32,590 nt of DNA from Archaeoglobus sp. GTDB taxonomy: Archaea; Halobacteriota; Archaeoglobi; Archaeoglobales; Archaeoglobaceae. The translations under genes and the position numbers were made by a program. Location: NCBI GenBank assembly GCA_017656505.1, contig JACDNU010000032.1:1-32590 (forward strand). The letters run 5' to 3'. The notes beneath the pieces are model-generated. The model did not search any database and had not been told where the DNA came from. It saw only the letters and a list, made by a program, of their open reading frames with translations. Positions 1 through 8,903 of the stretch are shown here, one piece after another; position 1 is the first letter of the stretch; each line of letters begins with the position of its first letter.

Positions 1-142
1 GTTCTCTGAGCCATTTTGAAAACTCTTTTTTATATTTGTCATACTCTAAAACAGCTTCTTGCTCTGTTATGGAAACCGAGGGCACCGAGGGTGAGACCCT
101 GAATCTGGCGCCTTTTCCTGACTCGGCAACCCCCGCTTTGGT
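1..142 (-). pseudogene. Integrase-like reading frame, partial, running off the left edge
   Basis: On the minus strand a frame stays open from just after a TGA at 145-143 to base 1. It first reads through the tRNA-Leu fragment (GVAESGKGARFRV) and then continues as SITEQEAVLEYDKYKKEF followed by SKWLRE. The last part, with its F-x-K-W-L pattern, resembles the start of the SAM-like core-binding domain of tyrosine integrases. In SSV-type archaeal integrases the attachment site lies inside the int gene, so the protein frame reads through tRNA sequence; after integration the gene is split into N and C parts. I infer an int(C)-type fragment, with no start codon in frame ahead of the tRNA part. Only 47 codons are visible, so the catalytic residues cannot be checked. 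A chance open frame is possible. Confidence 0.4.
94..136 (-). tRNA. 5' half of tRNA-Leu(CAG), truncated (attachment-site remnant)
   Basis: Read on the minus strand from 136, the sequence gives acceptor strand GCGGGGG, TT, a D arm with GCC/GGC stem, then CCAGA, the anticodon loop with CAG, and GGGTCT. This matches the first 43 nt of an archaeal tRNA-Leu. After 94 it diverges: the 3' side of the anticodon stem (expected TCTGG), the variable arm, the T arm and the 3' acceptor strand are absent. No TATA box lies at the usual 25 nt upstream; the nearest A+T stretch is about 40 nt away. It is probably a tRNA fragment left at an integration border. An intron-containing tRNA whose 3' exon lies beyond base 1 cannot be excluded. 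Confidence 0.6.
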
Positions 143-185
143 TCATTCAATACCTAACCCATTCCTTGTTAAGGATTTATGAAGG

Positions 186-2330
186 TTGTGGTCAGCATTT
201 CCATTCCATCATGATTATAATGAAAAACTTTATTTAATACTAACAGAAGTTTACTCTGAATCAAATGTTGACCACTCTTCACTAAGGGGTGAGAAAATTA
301 AGGATATTAAGGATAGCGAGGATGTTAAAACACCTCAAAACGAGGGAAATTCTAATGAGAAAAAGCTCCCAGAAATAGATAATTTTGATTATTCAGAATT
401 CGGTTCCATCATTCCTGAAGATAAGGCGGAAAAAGAAACTCCCACCGAGGTTAAACCTTCAGACAAAGATGACGAGAAAACAGATGGAAAAACAGGTGAT
501 ACAAATGATGGTACAAAGGATACAGAGAATACAAGAGATACAAGGGACATAGAAAATGAGGAAGAGAAGAAGGAAGTGAAAGAAGTAGAAGAAGAAGGAG
601 AAGAAGGAGAAAAAGTAGAACTCCCAGAGAAAGAGGTTAAAGAAATTAAGGAAGAAGAAATCGAGAAAGAGGCTGTAGAATCAATAGAAAAAGCAAAGAA
701 GAAAAAAAGATTTTGGGGCGGAAAGGGAGAAAAAAAGGAGAAGAAAGAAAAAGAAAAGAAAGAAAAGAAGGAGAAAAGAAAGAAGAAAAAGAAAAAACAT
801 GAGCCCCTTTTCGAGCCTTATAATCCAGAAACCCACGGCCCGCTTATCGAGTATTCTCCTCCTAAAGGGTGGGAAATAATAGACGAGTACTGGATCAAGG
901 AACATTACGCGAAGGTGTATATAATAAATAGCGATGAGGTCCACGATCAGAAATACGTTGTTGTTGAACCGAAACTAAATCCCTACGAGCTTGAAGTGTA
1001 TTACGAGCTGAAAAAGATTCTGAAAGACGAGCTGGAAAGCATAGAAATCGATGAAACTTCGGATAAAGAAGCTGTTCTGAAGGATGAGGTGGACAAGCTC
1101 ATAAAATCGATAGGAATTGATTTGCAACCTCTCTCATATTACAAAATAATATACTATCTAGTAAGAGACATCGTTCACTACGAAAGGATCTCAACTTTCA
1201 TGGAGGATAAATTCCTTGAGGACATCTCCTGCAACGGCTACAACATTCCAATCTTCGTATTCCACAGGAATTACGCGAATCTTGAGACGAATGTCGTTTT
1301 TGACGATCCTTCGGAGCTTGATGCTTTTGTGATTTCTTTGGCTCAAAGATGCGGAAAACACATCTCGATAGCCGATCCGATGATCGACGCAACCATGCCT
1401 GATGGTAGCAGAATCCAGATGACTTTGGGCAAGGAAGTAACCGACCGCGGTTCAACCTTTACGATAAGAAAGTTCAGGGAAGAGCCTGTAACTCCGGTCG
1501 ATCTAATAGCATGGAAGACCTTCTCAGCCGAAGAGATGGCGTATCTCTGGTTATGCATTGAAAACAAGAAGAGCCTGATCTTTGCGGGCGGAACAGCGAG
1601 CGGTAAGACAACGTCGATGAACGCTATCTCCCTCTTCATCCCGAGGAGAGCCAAGATAGTGACGATCGAAGACACGAGGGAGATTATGCTTCCTCATGAA
1701 AACTGGATTCCCGCCGTAACGAGAGATGCTTTCCACGGCGACAAGAGCTCGATAGACATGTACGACTTGCTTAAGGCAGCTTTGAGGCAGAGACCCGAGT
1801 TCATAATAGTCGGAGAGGTCAGAGGCAAGGAAGCGCTAACACTCTTTCAAGCTATGTCGACGGGCCACACAACCTATTCAACCCTGCATGCAGACACAGT
1901 AAGTGGGGTTATCCACAGGCTTGAGAATCCGCCGATAGGTGTTCCAAGGGCTATGCTCGACGCTTTGGACATCATAAGCATCCAAGCCCAGACCTTCATC
2001 GGAAAGAAGAGGGTTAGGAGGAACATGGAAATAAGCGAGATCGTTGGGCTGGATCCGTACTCAAAGATGCTTCGAACGACAACCGTCTTCCAGTGGGATT
2101 CCGTAAACGACACGCATAAGGTTGTTGGGGCATCGAAAACGCTGGAAGATATAAGGAAATCCAGGGGCTGGAGTGTGAAACAGCTCCAGAAAGAGCTTGA
2201 AAGAAGAAAGCAGGTTTTGGAGTTCATGGTCAGCCATAGAATCCACGACTTCAAGAGCGTTGCAAACATAATCCATGCTTACCAGAGCAATCCGGAAAAG
2301 ATTCTTGAAAAAATGGAGATCGTTGTCTAA
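186..2330 (+). CDS. Type II/IV secretion system ATPase (GspE/TadA/ArlI family)
   Basis: Hexameric secretion ATPase that drives assembly of a type IV pilus- or archaellum-like structure from the cytoplasmic side of the membrane. The catalytic half carries Walker A GGTASGKTT at about residue 467, the Asp box IVTIEDTRE, Walker B IIVGEVRG at about 540, and the His box STGHTTYSTLHADT. Residues 1 to about 208 are unusual: first acidic and Asp/Thr/Glu-rich, then almost only Lys and Glu, ending in a Lys-rich block before HEPLFEPYNP. The start is uncertain. TTG 186 follows an in-frame TGA at 180, has a weak ribosome site, and no ATG occurs in the N-terminal half; a GTG near 577 is an alternative. The next gene starts 17 bp downstream and encodes the membrane partner. 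No pilin or prepilin peptidase gene is nearby, so the substrate is unknown. Confidence 0.9.
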   Translation: MWSAFPFHHDYNEKLYLILTEVYSESNVDHSSLRGEKIKDIKDSEDVKTPQNEGNSNEKKLPEIDNFDYSEFGSIIPEDKAEKETPTEVKPSDKDDEKTDGKTGDTNDGTKDTENTRDTRDIENEEEKKEVKEVEEEGEEGEKVELPEKEVKEIKEEEIEKEAVESIEKAKKKKRFWGGKGEKKEKKEKEKKEKKEKRKKKKKKHEPLFEPYNPETHGPLIEYSPPKGWEIIDEYWIKEHYAKVYIINSDEVHDQKYVVVEPKLNPYELEVYYELKKILKDELESIEIDETSDKEAVLKDEVDKLIKSIGIDLQPLSYYKIIYYLVRDIVHYERISTFMEDKFLEDISCNGYNIPIFVFHRNYANLETNVVFDDPSELDAFVISLAQRCGKHISIADPMIDATMPDGSRIQMTLGKEVTDRGSTFTIRKFREEPVTPVDLIAWKTFSAEEMAYLWLCIENKKSLIFAGGTASGKTTSMNAISLFIPRRAKIVTIEDTREIMLPHENWIPAVTRDAFHGDKSSIDMYDLLKAALRQRPEFIIVGEVRGKEALTLFQAMSTGHTTYSTLHADTVSGVIHRLENPPIGVPRAMLDALDIISIQAQTFIGKKRVRRNMEISEIVGLDPYSKMLRTTTVFQWDSVNDTHKVVGASKTLEDIRKSRGWSVKQLQKELERRKQVLEFMVSHRIHDFKSVANIIHAYQSNPEKILEKMEIVV
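720..797 (+). repeat. 78-nt uninterrupted purine tract inside the secretion ATPase gene
   Basis: Every base from 720 to 797 on the plus strand is A or G, inside a wider purine-rich stretch from about 545 to 800. It encodes the Lys/Glu-rich tail. Such homopurine runs are prone to slippage and can form triplex DNA; any effect here is inference. Confidence 0.85.
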
Positions 2331-2347: not shown

Positions 2348-4297
2348 ATGATAAAAGAAGCAAACTACCTCAGCTACCTCGGATACAAGCTCTTCGGAGA
2401 TAGGATAAGGAAGGAGAGACACAAATACTACTATCTAGAGAAATCTCTGAGGCAGGCCATGATTTCTATGCCCCCGGAGATGTACATAGCCTCAGCCCAA
2501 ATGATTTCCCTTATCTTCGGTTTGATAGGAGCAATAATCGGTTTGCTCTCAGCCTATCTCATTGTTGAAATAGTTGGATTGCCGGAGGTCATTTTCCCGA
2601 TCTCTCTGCCGGAGCCTCTCTACACCTACTGGCTGATTTACAGGCCGTGGGTTATTGCTGGCTTCCTTGCTATACTGATTACGGTTGTTTTGTATTACGT
2701 AGGCTACTTGCTTTTCAAGATCTATCCTTCAACTGTAATAAGCGACAGAAAGAGCAAGATAAACAGAATCTTGCCGCACGCGATAACCTACATGTACTCT
2801 CTGAGCAGAGGTGGAATGAACCTCGTAGAGATATTTCGAAGCCTTGCCGAGAATCATGAAGTTTATGGGGAGGTTTCCGTTGAATTTGCGAGGATAATAA
2901 GGGACATGGAGCTCCTTGGCAAGGATTTGAGAACAGCTCTTTCCGACGCCATAGACCTTTCTCCATCAGAAAACCTCAGCGAGTTCTTCCATGGTTTAAT
3001 CACGATCATTGACAGCGGTGGAGATGTTACGAGATATTTCGAGGAGAGAGCAGAATTCTACCTCGAGAGGGCGAAGCAAGACCAGAAGAACTTCCTTGAA
3101 TTTCTCGGACTGATGGCCGAGAGCTACATAACAGCTTTCGTTGCTGGGCCCCTTTTCCTGATAATCATCCAGACGGTCATGGTTGTGATGGGCCAGGGAA
3201 ATGATATCGCTTTATACGCGATAATCTACTTGGTGATTCCTATCGGCTCTTTCTTTTTTGCGATAGTGATAAAGCTGCTAACGCCGATGGAGGAAGGCGA
3301 AGCTCCAGAGCTAAGCGAGAGTTTCGGAGTGAAAAAGAAGGGGAACAGGGTTGAAGGTTACGAGGATGCAATCAAGAAATTCCATAAGAAGATCAAATCA
3401 TGGAATTTAAAGAAAACGCTCAAAAATCCTCTGAAACCAATTAAAAGAAAGCCAATCTATGCCTTCATATTCTCAGTCCCGGCCGGAGTTCTTTTCATGC
3501 TCTACGGATTCATGCAGTTCCCCTACAGGCTTGGAATGGACTTCATTTCATGGTTTTTCTTCTTCGATGACTACGTTTTCATATCCTTGGTGATAATCTT
3601 CCTGCCCTTCGTAATATTCTATGAAGCGGGAAGGAGGAAGATAAAGACAGCTTTGAGACTCACACCAGTTTTCCTGAACAAGCTCGCCTCAGCCAACGAG
3701 AGCGGTATGCCGATATACCGAGCAATAACGATGATTGCAAAAACCGACACCAGCCCGCTCAGGAAGAATATTGCAAAAATAAAGTCAGATTTGGACTGGG
3801 GAATAAGCTTAAACGATGCTCTCGTTAGGTTTGCGAACAGGCTGAAAATCTTCGAGCTTTCGAGGACGATAACTCTGCTTAACGAAGCTCTGAAATCGAC
3901 AGGCAATGTTACGGAAGTGCTGATGGTCTCGGCAAAGGATGCATCGAATGCTGAGCTCATGAGACGAGAAAGGCTAACCAACATGTTCATGTACGTGATA
4001 ATAGTCTACATCTCCTTCTTCGTGTTCATCGGAATAGTTTACATAATTTCGACAACCTTCCTCTCAACCCTTGCTGAAAGTGCTGCAAAAGTTGCTGAGA
4101 GCGGAGCCTCCTATCAGATGCTCCAGGGGCTAAATGTGGAAACCTACAAGAACATCTTCATGCACGCGTCGATCTTCCAAGGCATATTCGCCGGAATCGT
4201 TGCTGGAGTCATGGGTGAGGGAAGCATATCCTCGGGTATAAAACACTCGCTGATAATGCTTGTGATGGCTTATTTGCTCTTCACAATCCTGATCTAA
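2348..4297 (+). CDS. Archaeal type II/IV secretion membrane platform protein (GspF/TadC/ArlJ-like, double domain)
   Basis: Polytopic membrane protein that forms the inner-membrane platform for the ATPase encoded just upstream (17 bp apart, presumably one operon). The start ATG 2348 has a GGTGATAGG ribosome site. Hydrophobic segments lie near residues 45-75, 95-125, 260-310, 375-400, 405-425, 545-575 and 610-645. Two GspF-type cytoplasmic helical domains are visible, at about 135-260 (HAITYMYSLSRGGMNLVEIF) and 430-550 (LTPVFLNKLASANESGMPIY). At 649 residues it is about the size of two fused T2SSF units, as in archaeal TadC/ArlJ-like proteins. Between them, about residues 315-370, is a Lys-rich cytoplasmic stretch. 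The substrate pilin is not encoded here, so whether the machine makes an adhesion pilus or a secretion device is unknown. Confidence 0.88.
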   Translation: MIKEANYLSYLGYKLFGDRIRKERHKYYYLEKSLRQAMISMPPEMYIASAQMISLIFGLIGAIIGLLSAYLIVEIVGLPEVIFPISLPEPLYTYWLIYRPWVIAGFLAILITVVLYYVGYLLFKIYPSTVISDRKSKINRILPHAITYMYSLSRGGMNLVEIFRSLAENHEVYGEVSVEFARIIRDMELLGKDLRTALSDAIDLSPSENLSEFFHGLITIIDSGGDVTRYFEERAEFYLERAKQDQKNFLEFLGLMAESYITAFVAGPLFLIIIQTVMVVMGQGNDIALYAIIYLVIPIGSFFFAIVIKLLTPMEEGEAPELSESFGVKKKGNRVEGYEDAIKKFHKKIKSWNLKKTLKNPLKPIKRKPIYAFIFSVPAGVLFMLYGFMQFPYRLGMDFISWFFFFDDYVFISLVIIFLPFVIFYEAGRRKIKTALRLTPVFLNKLASANESGMPIYRAITMIAKTDTSPLRKNIAKIKSDLDWGISLNDALVRFANRLKIFELSRTITLLNEALKSTGNVTEVLMVSAKDASNAELMRRERLTNMFMYVIIVYISFFVFIGIVYIISTTFLSTLAESAAKVAESGASYQMLQGLNVETYKNIFMHASIFQGIFAGIVAGVMGEGSISSGIKHSLIMLVMAYLLFTILI

Positions 4298-4324
4298 TGG
4301 ATTGGGTAGGTCTGAGGATAGTTC

Positions 4325-4371
4325 CTTTAAAATTCTTTTAAAATCTCTTAAAATCTTTTTAAAAAGATTTT
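4325..4371 (+). promoter_or_regulatory. Tandem TTTAAAA repeats ending in a 22-bp perfect palindrome (candidate NikR operator)
   Basis: Four copies of a CTTTTAAAATCT-like unit follow each other at about 10-12 bp spacing from 4325 to 4371. The last forms a perfect palindrome at 4350-4371: AAAATCTTTTT followed by its reverse complement. It abuts and partly overlaps the nikR TATA element (TTTTATAA, about 4369-4376), a good place for autorepression. It does not resemble the E. coli NikR operator, so the link to nickel is inference. Confidence 0.5.
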
Positions 4372-5147: not shown

Positions 5148-5168
5148 TTTGTGGTCATATCCTTTTTC

Positions 5169-8100
5169 ATGAAAAAGAGCTTCTTACTATTTGTAGTGGT
5201 AGCTTTGCTACTTCTTGTAGTTCCAGTAAACGCCCAATTTCAATTTAAACCTTGGAAATGGGAACAAGTTAGCGAAGAAGGATTTAGAGACCTAAACAAC
5301 GATTATGCATGGGCTATGGCCGTATATACACCTATTGATGGGAGTACAGAGTATCTGTATGTCGGTACTCTGAATACGGCAAGTCTCACAAATCCACCAA
5401 CACCATCTTCAGGAGCTCAAGTGTGGAGAACAAACGGAACAATGGTTGATGGAAAGTATGTGTGGGAGCAAGTGGTTGGTCCAGCAGGATCGCAGGCCAC
5501 TGCTGGATTTACAAGTGTTGACAATAAAAGTTTTGCTTTGGGCGTTAGAGGAATGACAGAATATAATGGTTTATTGTGGGCAGGAACACTCCCTCTTGCA
5601 GAGATTTTTGTTACTAATGGCACAACTTGGAAAAGAGCAAATCTGCCTGGATTCGGAGTTGTTAATATCTCCAGCGTTACTACTGGCTCACTAACCTCTA
5701 CAAGAGGAATTACAGTCTATAAAGGAAAAATATACGCTGAGGCTGAGGATAAAGAGAATGGTGTAAGAATTTTTAGGTATAATGGCTCTACGAATTTCGA
5801 TGAAATTGGCAGCCTCCCTAATCAAATGGCGTGGGAGCAGGTTAACTATCCTGGATTTGATGGGACGAATTACAGTCGTACGGCTTCTGAATTGATTGTT
5901 TACGATCCACCTGATGACGGAAAGAACATCGAATATCTATATGCGTTTACTTGGACTGTTGACGCTGCAGACATAATTCGCACCTCCCCTTCTGAAATGA
6001 AAGGGTTTGAGATCTGGAGAACAGATGGAGCAAAAAATCCAGACGGGACACTAAAATGGGAGTGTGTAGTAGGGAGAAACAGTTCCTATGGAAATTCACC
6101 CGGGTTGGGAGATAACGCTAATGGTGGCGTTCTCTCAGTTGTTATATTCAAAGGAAAGCTCTATATCGGTACTGCAAACTTCAAAGACGGAGCAGAAATA
6201 TGGAGAACCAGCGATGGAGTCCACTGGGAACCGGTTGAACTATTCGGCTTTGGAAGAACGAATGGATACATCTGGAGGATGATCGAATACAATGGCAAAC
6301 TTGTTGTCGGCACAATGAACCCGTTCATGGGCTGTGAGATCTGGGTGAGCGATACAGGAGATCCAGGCACTTTCAGGCAAGTAAATCTCAATGGAATGGA
6401 TCTGTCTTATAACCTGCCCGTAAACATCGGTGCACTCTTTGATAAGGATTTAACAGTAAAGCTTGCAGATCAGTACGGTATTAGGGCTGTGGCAAAGTAC
6501 CAAGGATATCTGGTTATAGGCACTGCAAGCTGGGGAGACTGGATCGATAAACTTCTCTATAATGCGACCAATGGAAAGTGGGAAGGAGCCTCCGATTACG
6601 TAGGCTTAGAAATATGGAGAACCGACGGCACTCTCTACACCCCAAGAGAAATAGACATAGACAAGAAAGCTTGGGATGCAAACACCAACCAGTGGGTTGA
6701 CAGACTTGATGCAAATGTAGGAGACACAATCAGGTTCAACTACACAATTCACAACGATCAAACCACCGATTTGGAAGACATAGTAGTCTGGGATTATCTC
6801 TCCTCAGGTCTTAAATACTCTGGAAACTCAACCATTCCTCCAGTTGTATTGGACTTCTCATCCCTCCCCAGAGACTTATGGATGTTTAACAGAAACCTCG
6901 GAACGATACTCGTCTGGGATCTCCATGGGATGACAATAACTCCTGGAGATAGCCTCTCAATCGAATACGATGCAGATGTAGTGAAAGAGGGCAAGAGCGT
7001 AAACATCGTGGTCTCAGTGGGGAAGTTCGGGAACGAAGGTGGTTTGAGCGAAGATGAACTAATTATTGACGTTGGAAAGTTATGGAAATGGGAACAAGTT
7101 AGCGAAGAAGGATTTGGAGACCTAAACAACGATTACACATTCTCTATGGCTGTGTACAACACTGGTGACAAAGAATACCTCTACGTGGGAACTCTGAACA
7201 CCCAAACTGGAGCAGAGATTTGGAGAACTGATGGAACAATTGGGACTGACGGTAAGTACATCTGGGAACCAGTTGTCGGTCTAAGTGGAACTCAAATGCC
7301 CGCAGGATTTGGACAGGGAATTACCGGGGCGAGAGGGATGGTAGTGTATGATAGATTACTATGGGTCGGTTGCATGGATAAAACACCAGACTTGCCCGGA
7401 TTAGCATACGTTTGGGTAACCGACGGTACAGATTGGAGGTTAGCAAACATTCCAGGGTTTAACAATAGCGATGCATCAATTAGAGGCATGGCTGTCTTTA
7501 ATGGTGAGTTGTATGTTGCCACTCAAAGATACAAAGGTGGTGGTGCAGACATCTATAGATATACTGGTCCAGCAGCTAACGGAGATCTCAATAAAGTAGA
7601 TCCCAATGCATGGGAAAGAGTTTTTAGCGTTTCTGCAGATGAAGCGGATGCAATTGGCGTCCTTTTAGAATACAAAGGATACCTTTACGCCTTTGGCTGG
7701 TCTATTGGCATTAATACAGTGGGACTCTCAAGCTGGCATGGTTTTGAGATATATAGGTCAAGTGATGGGACTAGCTGGGAAAAAGTGGTAGGAGATTCAG
7801 CAACAACTCCAAGAGGCTTTGGTGATGATGCGAATCATGCAGTCCTGAGTGCTACGGTATTTAATGACATGCTTTATGTTGGCACTTTAAACTTCAAAGA
7901 CGGAGCAGAAATATGGAGAACCAGCGATGGAGTCCACTGGGAACCGGTTGAACTATTCGGCTTTGGAAGAACGAATGGATACATCTGGAGGATGATCGAA
8001 TACAATGGCAAACTTGTTGTCGGCACAATGAACCCGTTCATGGGCTGTGAGATCTGGGTGAGCGATACAGGAGATCCAGGCACTTTCAGGCAAGTAAATC

Positions 8101-8903
8101 TCAATGGAATGGATCTGTCTTATAACCTGCCCGTAAACATCGGTGCACTCTTTGATAAGGATTTAACAGTAAAGCTTGCAGATCAGTACGGTATTAGGGC
8201 TGTGGCAAAGTACCAAGGATATCTGGTTATAGGCACTGCAAGCTGGGGAGACTGGATCGATAAACTTCTCTATAATGCGACCAATGGAAAGTGGGAAGGA
8301 GCCTCCGATTACGTAGGCTTAGAAATATGGAGAACCGACGGCACTCTCTACACCCCAAGAGAAATAGACATAGACAAGAAAGCTTGGGATGCAAACACCA
8401 ACCAGTGGGTTGACAGACTTGATGCAAATGTAGGAGACACAATCAGGTTCAACTACACAATTCACAACGATCAAACCACCGATTTGGAAGACATAGTAGT
8501 CTGGGATTATCTCTCCTCAGGTCTTAAATACTCTGGAAACTCAACCATTCCTCCAGTTGTATTGGACTTCTCATCCCTCCCCAGAGACTTATGGATGTTT
8601 AACAGAAACCTCGGAACGATACTCGTCTGGGATCTCCATGGGATGACAATAACTCCTGGAGATAGCCTCTCAATCGAATACGATGCAGATGTAGTGAAAG
8701 AGGGCAAGAGCGTAAACATCGTGCTCTCAGCAGGGAAGTTTGGTTCTGCATGTTGTGGTGAGAGTGGAATAGGTTGCGACAAAGTTGTAATTCATGGGAA
8801 ACAAGCTCCACCACAACCAATTCCTGAGTTCTCTCCAATTGGATTTGTGGCAGCATTTTTCTCCGTGGTTGTAGCAATACTGTGGAGGAGAAGGGTTGTT
8901 TAG
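5169..8903 (+). CDS. Large secreted surface protein, tandem-duplicated, with PEF-CTERM-like anchor
   Basis: The 1244-residue product starts with a signal peptide (MKKSFLLF, a long Leu/Val core, cut near VNA-Q) and ends in PIPEFSPIGF, a hydrophobic helix and WRRRVV. That fits a PEF-CTERM tail that an archaeosortase would process, so the protein is probably displayed on the cell surface. Two tandem halves start with WKWEQVSEEGF (residues 29 and 639). Each has about six repeats of the type YVGT-x-EIWRTxDGxxWEPV, similar to Asp-box/BNR beta-propeller blades, then a DUF11-like Ig-fold domain (about 496-610 and 1067-1181; VGDTIRFNYTIHNDQTTDLE). Residues 337-614 and 908-1185 are the same. Many Asn-x-Ser/Thr sites suggest glycosylation. 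The ligand is unknown; adhesion or glycan binding is a guess. No neighbour explains its role. Confidence 0.85.
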   Translation: MKKSFLLFVVVALLLLVVPVNAQFQFKPWKWEQVSEEGFRDLNNDYAWAMAVYTPIDGSTEYLYVGTLNTASLTNPPTPSSGAQVWRTNGTMVDGKYVWEQVVGPAGSQATAGFTSVDNKSFALGVRGMTEYNGLLWAGTLPLAEIFVTNGTTWKRANLPGFGVVNISSVTTGSLTSTRGITVYKGKIYAEAEDKENGVRIFRYNGSTNFDEIGSLPNQMAWEQVNYPGFDGTNYSRTASELIVYDPPDDGKNIEYLYAFTWTVDAADIIRTSPSEMKGFEIWRTDGAKNPDGTLKWECVVGRNSSYGNSPGLGDNANGGVLSVVIFKGKLYIGTANFKDGAEIWRTSDGVHWEPVELFGFGRTNGYIWRMIEYNGKLVVGTMNPFMGCEIWVSDTGDPGTFRQVNLNGMDLSYNLPVNIGALFDKDLTVKLADQYGIRAVAKYQGYLVIGTASWGDWIDKLLYNATNGKWEGASDYVGLEIWRTDGTLYTPREIDIDKKAWDANTNQWVDRLDANVGDTIRFNYTIHNDQTTDLEDIVVWDYLSSGLKYSGNSTIPPVVLDFSSLPRDLWMFNRNLGTILVWDLHGMTITPGDSLSIEYDADVVKEGKSVNIVVSVGKFGNEGGLSEDELIIDVGKLWKWEQVSEEGFGDLNNDYTFSMAVYNTGDKEYLYVGTLNTQTGAEIWRTDGTIGTDGKYIWEPVVGLSGTQMPAGFGQGITGARGMVVYDRLLWVGCMDKTPDLPGLAYVWVTDGTDWRLANIPGFNNSDASIRGMAVFNGELYVATQRYKGGGADIYRYTGPAANGDLNKVDPNAWERVFSVSADEADAIGVLLEYKGYLYAFGWSIGINTVGLSSWHGFEIYRSSDGTSWEKVVGDSATTPRGFGDDANHAVLSATVFNDMLYVGTLNFKDGAEIWRTSDGVHWEPVELFGFGRTNGYIWRMIEYNGKLVVGTMNPFMGCEIWVSDTGDPGTFRQVNLNGMDLSYNLPVNIGALFDKDLTVKLADQYGIRAVAKYQGYLVIGTASWGDWIDKLLYNATNGKWEGASDYVGLEIWRTDGTLYTPREIDIDKKAWDANTNQWVDRLDANVGDTIRFNYTIHNDQTTDLEDIVVWDYLSSGLKYSGNSTIPPVVLDFSSLPRDLWMFNRNLGTILVWDLHGMTITPGDSLSIEYDADVVKEGKSVNIVLSAGKFGSACCGESGIGCDKVVIHGKQAPPQPIPEFSPIGFVAAFFSVVVAILWRRRVV
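6176..7010 (+). repeat. 835-bp direct repeat, copy 1
   Basis: This block recurs at 7889-8723 with an offset of exactly 1713 bp. I compared the two line by line and saw no difference, including at third codon positions. The flanks diverge at once (C/T on the left, G/C on the right). Confidence 0.9.
7889..8723 (+). repeat. 835-bp direct repeat, copy 2
   Basis: Second copy of the block at 6176-7010, in frame in the same gene. It covers the last propeller blades and the DUF11-like domain. A shorter repeat at 5253-5303 and 7083-7133, with a single mismatch, opens the two halves. Confidence 0.9.

Follow-up and report, generated by a model that had tools for sequence, protein, structure and literature searches.

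A tRNA-Leu(CAG) half joined in frame to an integrase gene fragment very probably marks the junction of an integrated element with a pTN3-like integrase in Archaeoglobus

Half a tRNA gene at a contig edge

At the left edge of an Archaeoglobus contig, half of a tRNA gene is read in frame into what looks like the start of an integrase. What is this structure, and why does the sequence break off there? The stretch of DNA analysed here (the window) is the whole of contig C32, 32,590 bases long, from an assembly of 2.52 Mb in 95 contigs, and its base 1 is the contig end. The features near this end are as follows.

1..55: same sequence as the first 55 bases of contig C3, which carries a second integrated copy (contig comparison)
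2..93, minus strand: beginning of int(C) (~31 residues), read in one frame with the half tRNA; core-binding region YDKYKKEFSKWLRE, tyrosine recombinase of the PF16795 type (similarity to the complete copy in the sister genome G004)
94..136, minus strand: 5' half of tRNA-Leu(CAG), which forms the att core at the end of the element that bears int(C) (43/43 identity with the gene of G004)
137..192, minus strand: host 5' flank of the tRNA gene
173-192, minus strand: probable promoter box ACCACAACCTTCATAAATCC (similarity to the loci of relatives; the promoter role is putative)
186..2330, plus strand: host type II/IV secretion ATPase (PilB3-like), adjoining the integration site (PF00437, 2.6e-37; PF23989, 1.6e-6)

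The half tRNA comprises nucleotides 1-43 (nucleotide 1 is base 136 and nucleotide 43 is base 94) and spans the anticodon loop and the beginning of the 3' anticodon stem; ARAGORN reported no complete tRNA at 94-136. G004 has an intact tRNA-Leu(CAG) that agrees at all 43 nucleotides. The 43-mer also occurs in G002, G005, G009, and G041, and with one mismatch in G001, and this occurrence across relatives excludes a chance match. On the minus strand, an open frame extends from base 142 to base 2; its translation is TKAGVAESGKGARFRV-SPSVPSVSITEQEAVLEYDKYKKEFSKWLRE, where TKAGVAESGKGARFRV consists mostly of tRNA-derived residues and SPSVPSVSITEQEAVLEYDKYKKEFSKWLRE is the portion after the tRNA; all three frames of the half tRNA are open. 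The portion after the tRNA is 71-77% identical to the complete integrase of G004, depending on the stretch aligned, and the DNA identity over bases 20-136 is 90%. The catalytic PF16795 domain lies outside the window, whose copy is truncated by the contig edge and retains the first 31 residues only. Thus, both elements of the first-pass annotation, made from the sequence alone, are borne out: the 43 nucleotides of tRNA-Leu(CAG) and the integrase-like frame that follows them. It had further suggested that the window begins at the border of an integrated element; a border is indeed present, but it lies at 94-136, and base 1 is a mere assembly break within int(C).

Contig C3 provides a second junction of the same type, with a half tRNA of the GAG isoacceptor. 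The two contigs are identical over bases 1-55 and 94% identical to base 136, and have no similarity past it. In both, the start of int(C) contains neither a stop codon nor a frameshift. From base 137 onward, C3 is syntenic with the 5' flank of the uninterrupted tRNA-Leu(GAG) in G003 and G004. The 55-mer from the window start is on no other contig examined, and a 25-base probe searched against the whole genome matches C3 and C32 only. The next stretch of int(C) is probably common to the two integrated copies, and the piece was probably lost from the assembly, as this shared repeat and the lower limit on contigs (the smallest is ~1.1 kb) explain the missing stretch. The assembly also lacks the remainder of int(C), the body of the window element, and the restored tRNA-Leu(CAG), and therefore the chain of evidence for this genome was completed through relatives. 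The sole full-length relative of int(C) in the same genome, on contig C5, comes from another branch of the integrase tree.

The opposite junction type

Contig C58 carries an intact tRNA-Leu(GAG) at 4271-4355, with an int(N) frame of 89 residues just upstream. Its translation, MGTETHLSG...LISPSEG-AGVAESGKGARLRV, runs into the tRNA and stops within it, the frame being the one used in the window. The C58 tRNA and the C3 half have 44 consecutive bases in common and diverge on both sides, as expected of a pair of att sites, and C3 and C58 appear to be the two ends of one insertion. For the far flank of C58, no syntenic counterpart was found among the relatives examined. The element part of C58 (4.3 kb) encodes a 462-residue protein without a Pfam or PHROGs match, a winged-helix protein, and small proteins; no capsid or packaging-ATPase gene was found in these 4.3 kb.

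Counterpart loci in related genomes

In G004, an Archaeoglobales MAG (isolate B4_G15, QMZD01000013.1), the half tRNA and the secretion-ATPase neighbourhood of the window are followed by a complete int(C), 288 residues long with the att part counted in, which has matches to PF16795 (Phage_integr_3, 1.4e-42) and to the PHROG integrase family phrog_5127 (1.6e-46). The catalytic part that the first-pass annotation expected beyond the junction is thus seen at this counterpart locus. The adjoining genes encode a beta-helix protein and two proteins of no assigned family. On another contig of G004 (C116), int(N) leads into an intact tRNA-Leu(CAG), and its last 44 residues are 95% identical to those of the C58 int(N). 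The intact tRNA-Leu(CAG) that the annotation proposed to look for was not found in the own genome of the window, but is present in this relative with int(N) upstream. In G003, tRNA-Leu(CAG) is uninterrupted, with a related upstream sequence.

G009, a single-contig genome of 1.90 Mb from the same family, contains a whole 13.3-kb copy at tRNA-Leu(GAG) with 43-base repeats at its ends, that is, both junctions of one element. Its integrase matches PF16795 (2.9e-37). By sequence similarity, this copy is a pTN3/TKV4-like provirus: in addition to Int, it has homologs of the pTN3 major capsid protein (6.5e-22), packaging ATPase (1.2e-47), Holliday-junction-resolvase-like protein (1.6e-7), and zinc-ribbon protein (1.9e-6). 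The label double-jelly-roll for its putative capsid protein comes from the pTN3 annotation and homology, not from a fold. Both the G004 copy and the 13-kb copy of G009 retain the catalytic residues R..K..xxxR..Y, which are lost in a 2.4-kb remnant at tRNA-Leu(CAG) of G009. This remnant (L050, 6535-9038) comprises an int(C) that lacks its catalytic end, two small genes, int(N), and an intact tRNA, with an extra copy of the tRNA 3' end ~90 bases downstream.

Across these loci, the att repeats are 42-44 bp long and begin at tRNA nucleotide 1 or one base before. The architecture is that of type I integration: the window and C3 carry a half tRNA with int(C), C58 carries int(N) with a tRNA, and G004 and G009 have both. 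In all five cases the att site is the 5' half of the tRNA, not the 3' end as in pT26-2-like integrases. Searches of IMG/VR with int(N), int(C), and the pTN3 Int as queries yielded no relatives.

Probable integration through an att site inside the integrase gene

We hold with high confidence that the window feature is the junction of an integrated mobile element whose tyrosine integrase gene contains attP, and that int was split at the host tRNA-Leu(CAG). The integrase is a suicidal one (SSV-type, type I) of the pTN3-like kind, found in Archaeoglobales. An SSV-type integrase with translated tRNA sequence had been proposed from the window alone, and the fusion of int(N) to tRNA-Leu(GAG) on C58, the PF16795-type int(C) in G004, and the uninterrupted tRNA in G003 all bear this out. 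By recombination between its own attP, inside the reading frame, and the 5' half of the tRNA-Leu(CAG) gene of the host, the integrase would divide int into an int(N) and an int(C) part. On the window side, the order at the junction would then be native 5' flank of the tRNA gene, 5' tRNA half, int(C), while at the other junction, unassembled here, int(N) would run in frame into a restored tRNA-Leu(CAG). The cleavage site presumably borders the anticodon loop. The split Int would be unable to excise the element unless a compatible intact integrase were supplied. The window element is a probable provirus and, by analogy, may be a virus like that of G009.

The host side of the junction is consistent with this order. 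A box ACCAYAANNTTCATAAAYYC, first spotted by eye and counted afterwards, so that its chance figure is post hoc, lies ~20-56 bases upstream of the half tRNA in the window and in G004; G002 and G003 have it at this distance from their intact gene, while the restored tRNAs carry int(N) code in its place. This means that the half retains the native 5' flank. The box is a probable promoter, and the restored tRNA would be transcribed from the int(N) side, in agreement with reports on pTN3. The secretion ATPase adjoins the junction in G004 as well; base 186 is the start of its longest frame, and the true start is probably further downstream.

Farther into the window, a gene at 5151-8903 (plus strand) encodes a 1250-residue protein, probably secreted, with a hydrophobic C-terminal end. 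It contains two near-identical repeats of ~570 residues, spaced by 1713 bases and 96% identical over a 300-base piece.

Alternative explanations

The half stops beside the anticodon loop, the usual position of archaeal introns, where the tRNA-Leu(CAA) of the same genome apparently has one. Hence one could read the structure as a tRNA-Leu(CAG) with an intron left of base 94 and the 3' exon past base 1, which the first-pass annotation had itself named as the counter-explanation. However, tRNA-Leu(CAG) is whole and intron-free in G001, G002, G003, G004, G005, and G009, and the sequence that follows the half is integrase code in common with G004 and C3, which makes an intron very improbable. The window could also hold the 5' half gene of a split tRNA joined in trans, as in Nanoarchaeum, and the failure to find an intact tRNA-Leu(CAG) in this genome would fit. 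We give hardly any credence to this, as no orphan 3' half was found in the ~750 kb searched, which took in every contig shorter than 20 kb, the four good matches to a 3' half all come from other tRNA-Leu genes, and the same kind of half is surrounded by an integration structure in C3/C58 and G004. A decayed old remnant, with the element mostly deleted or recombined with the GAG-type copy, deserves more attention but still seems unlikely. The 2.4-kb remnant of G009, with its truncated int(C), is a precedent for deletion, and an inversion between two related integrated copies has been reported for TKV2/TKV3 (PMC6972569; PMC8371274). Against decay, the visible start of int(C) is free of stops and frameshifts in C32 and C3 alike, and the missing stretch is already accounted for by the repeat and the contig size limit. 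An integrated element with an int split at tRNA-Leu(CAG) thus remains our preferred reading; weighing against it are the parts missing from this assembly, the long branch of pTN3 in the integrase tree, and the far flank of C58, for which the relatives examined offer no syntenic match.

We also considered an integrase-driven inversion between the tRNA-Leu loci, suspected since the counterpart of the G003 DNA downstream of tRNA-Leu(GAG) is found at the far end of C3. We abandoned this idea, as in G005 that DNA likewise lies ~70 kb from the tRNA, G003 probably having the derived arrangement, and as C3 continues into C35 via a short overlap. Capsid and packaging genes on contig C9 were rejected as the body of the window element, as they have their own, different recombinase and the region has no 31-mer in common with C32, C3, or C58.

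57739-58443 of C9: packaging ATPase
61581-62567 of C9: capsid-protein homologue
67405-68127 of C9, minus strand: PF00589-type recombinase

The region of C9 at ~55.0-68.1 kb (L125) is a second, different provirus-like region in the genome. Another side observation is the tRNA-Leu(CAA) gene on contig C15 (L006, near 1501-1630), unreported by ARAGORN, with its apparent intron after the anticodon.

Comparison with known integrases

Among the closest known systems is the Int of pTN3 from Thermococcus nautili (KF527230). It likewise has att inside int and a PF16795-type catalytic part, and the 5' half of tRNA-Leu is read sense in the same frame (AGVAEPG...) as in the window; the use of one frame, though all three are open, favours a common origin. 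At the same time, the identity to the window-type integrase is only 27%, the target of pTN3 is tRNA-Leu(CAA), judging by its att sequence, rather than CAG or GAG, and its host belongs to another order. The G009 copy and pTN3 have capsid protein, packaging ATPase, and resolvase-like genes in common. According to a 2021 review, pTN3-like integrases use an attB in the tRNA 5' half, called unique in archaea (PMC8371274), of ~41-44 bp including the anticodon loop (ibid.; PMC5495485). In vitro, the pTN3 Int performs integration, excision, and inversion on tRNA-Leu 2-44, a result obtained for this integrase only (PMC5495485). The 5' half as att, which the first-pass annotation had remarked upon as unusual, is therefore confirmed, but is not an oddity: PMC8371274 presents it as a hallmark of pTN3-like integrases. 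Integration into the 5' half is a rare mode, used by pTN3 of Thermococcus and now seen in several Archaeoglobales genomes.

By contrast, pT26-2-like integrases (GU056179; pGE2; ApPV1 and AvPV1 of Archaeoglobus) have a split int with att in the same place in the protein and 31-33% identity, but read the tRNA 3' half antisense; their att is the tRNA 3' end (PMC6972569). Genes for integrases of the SSV type (fuselloviruses, represented here by SSV20) are likewise divided into an int(N) and an int(C) part upon integration; the SSV20 integrase uses the 3' half antisense and is distant from the window type.

A tree was constructed for 39 related integrase sequences, with relatives picked by similarity to one query and SSV20 as the outgroup. 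The window-type int(C) genes L058, L059, and L083 form a clade with L060-L062 (support 100/97). This clade is probably sister to pTN3 (99/95), on a long pTN3 branch (1.7) and with only one pTN3-like reference included. Forced grouping of the clade with pT26-2 was rejected (p-AU 0.008). The main paper on suicidal integrases of Archaeoglobales is that of Badel et al. 2020 (MBE).

Orientation of the tRNA half

Among the 39 integrase genes, 32 contain the 3' half (T arm) antisense and four the 5' half sense, none has a sense 3' half, and in three no att was recognised; half and strand were scored in or just before each gene by a simple expression, which degenerate sites may escape. The four sense-5'-half genes are pTN3 and three genes from Archaeoglobales. 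Wherever the sequence itself was read, the acceptor end points towards int(N) and the anticodon loop towards int(C). The two modes (5' half sense, 3' half antisense) therefore seem to mirror each other about the anticodon stem-loop, a dyad-symmetric structure at which SSV1 Int is reported to cut.

Both modes occur in the clade of the window: L060-L062 have 3'-antisense sites, probably in tRNA-Glu and a tRNA with the CAT anticodon (from sequence reading). As they share the clade with the 5' users L058, L059, and L083, at least one switch of halves has occurred within the clade or at its base. A single group of all four 5'-half users was marginally rejected (p-AU 0.046), while a clade of the three Archaeoglobales 5' users was not (p 0.30). 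Our tentative proposal, which we rate at somewhat below even, is a mirror rule: the acceptor end stays next to int(N) and the anticodon loop next to int(C), and halves may be switched via flipped recombination at the stem-loop. The flip itself is a hypothetical mechanism. Term searches of the 2021 review (PMC8371274) turned up no discussion of att orientation within int.

tRNA-Leu genes are also used from the other side. The integrase of ApPV1, a pleomorphic provirus of A. profundus (BK065154; L108, 1-60), apparently contains the antisense 3' half of tRNA-Leu(GAG), which thus seems to be targeted by ApPV1 from the 3' side and by the window family from the 5' side. In G002, G003, and G004, tRNA-Leu(CAG) is directly followed by another recombinase gene (MVDMDEWR...), the start of which also follows tRNA-Leu(TAG) at the end of C22 of G003, and in the genome of the window (G000) a recombinase follows tRNA-Leu(TAA). 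The loci of these 3'-side recombinases are:

8347-9540 of L052
248-562 of L055
ends of contigs C25 and C22 of G003
5095-6660 of contig C26 of G000

Implications

These data establish the 5'-half mode in Archaeoglobales, with uncertain priority, and with two leucine isoacceptor genes used in one genome. The occurrence of 5'-half users among close 3'-half relatives provides a data set on how a target changes when it is translated into the integrase. It also yields loci at which the native tRNA 5' flank precedes an integrase fragment, while the working tRNA would rely on the int(N) side of the element.
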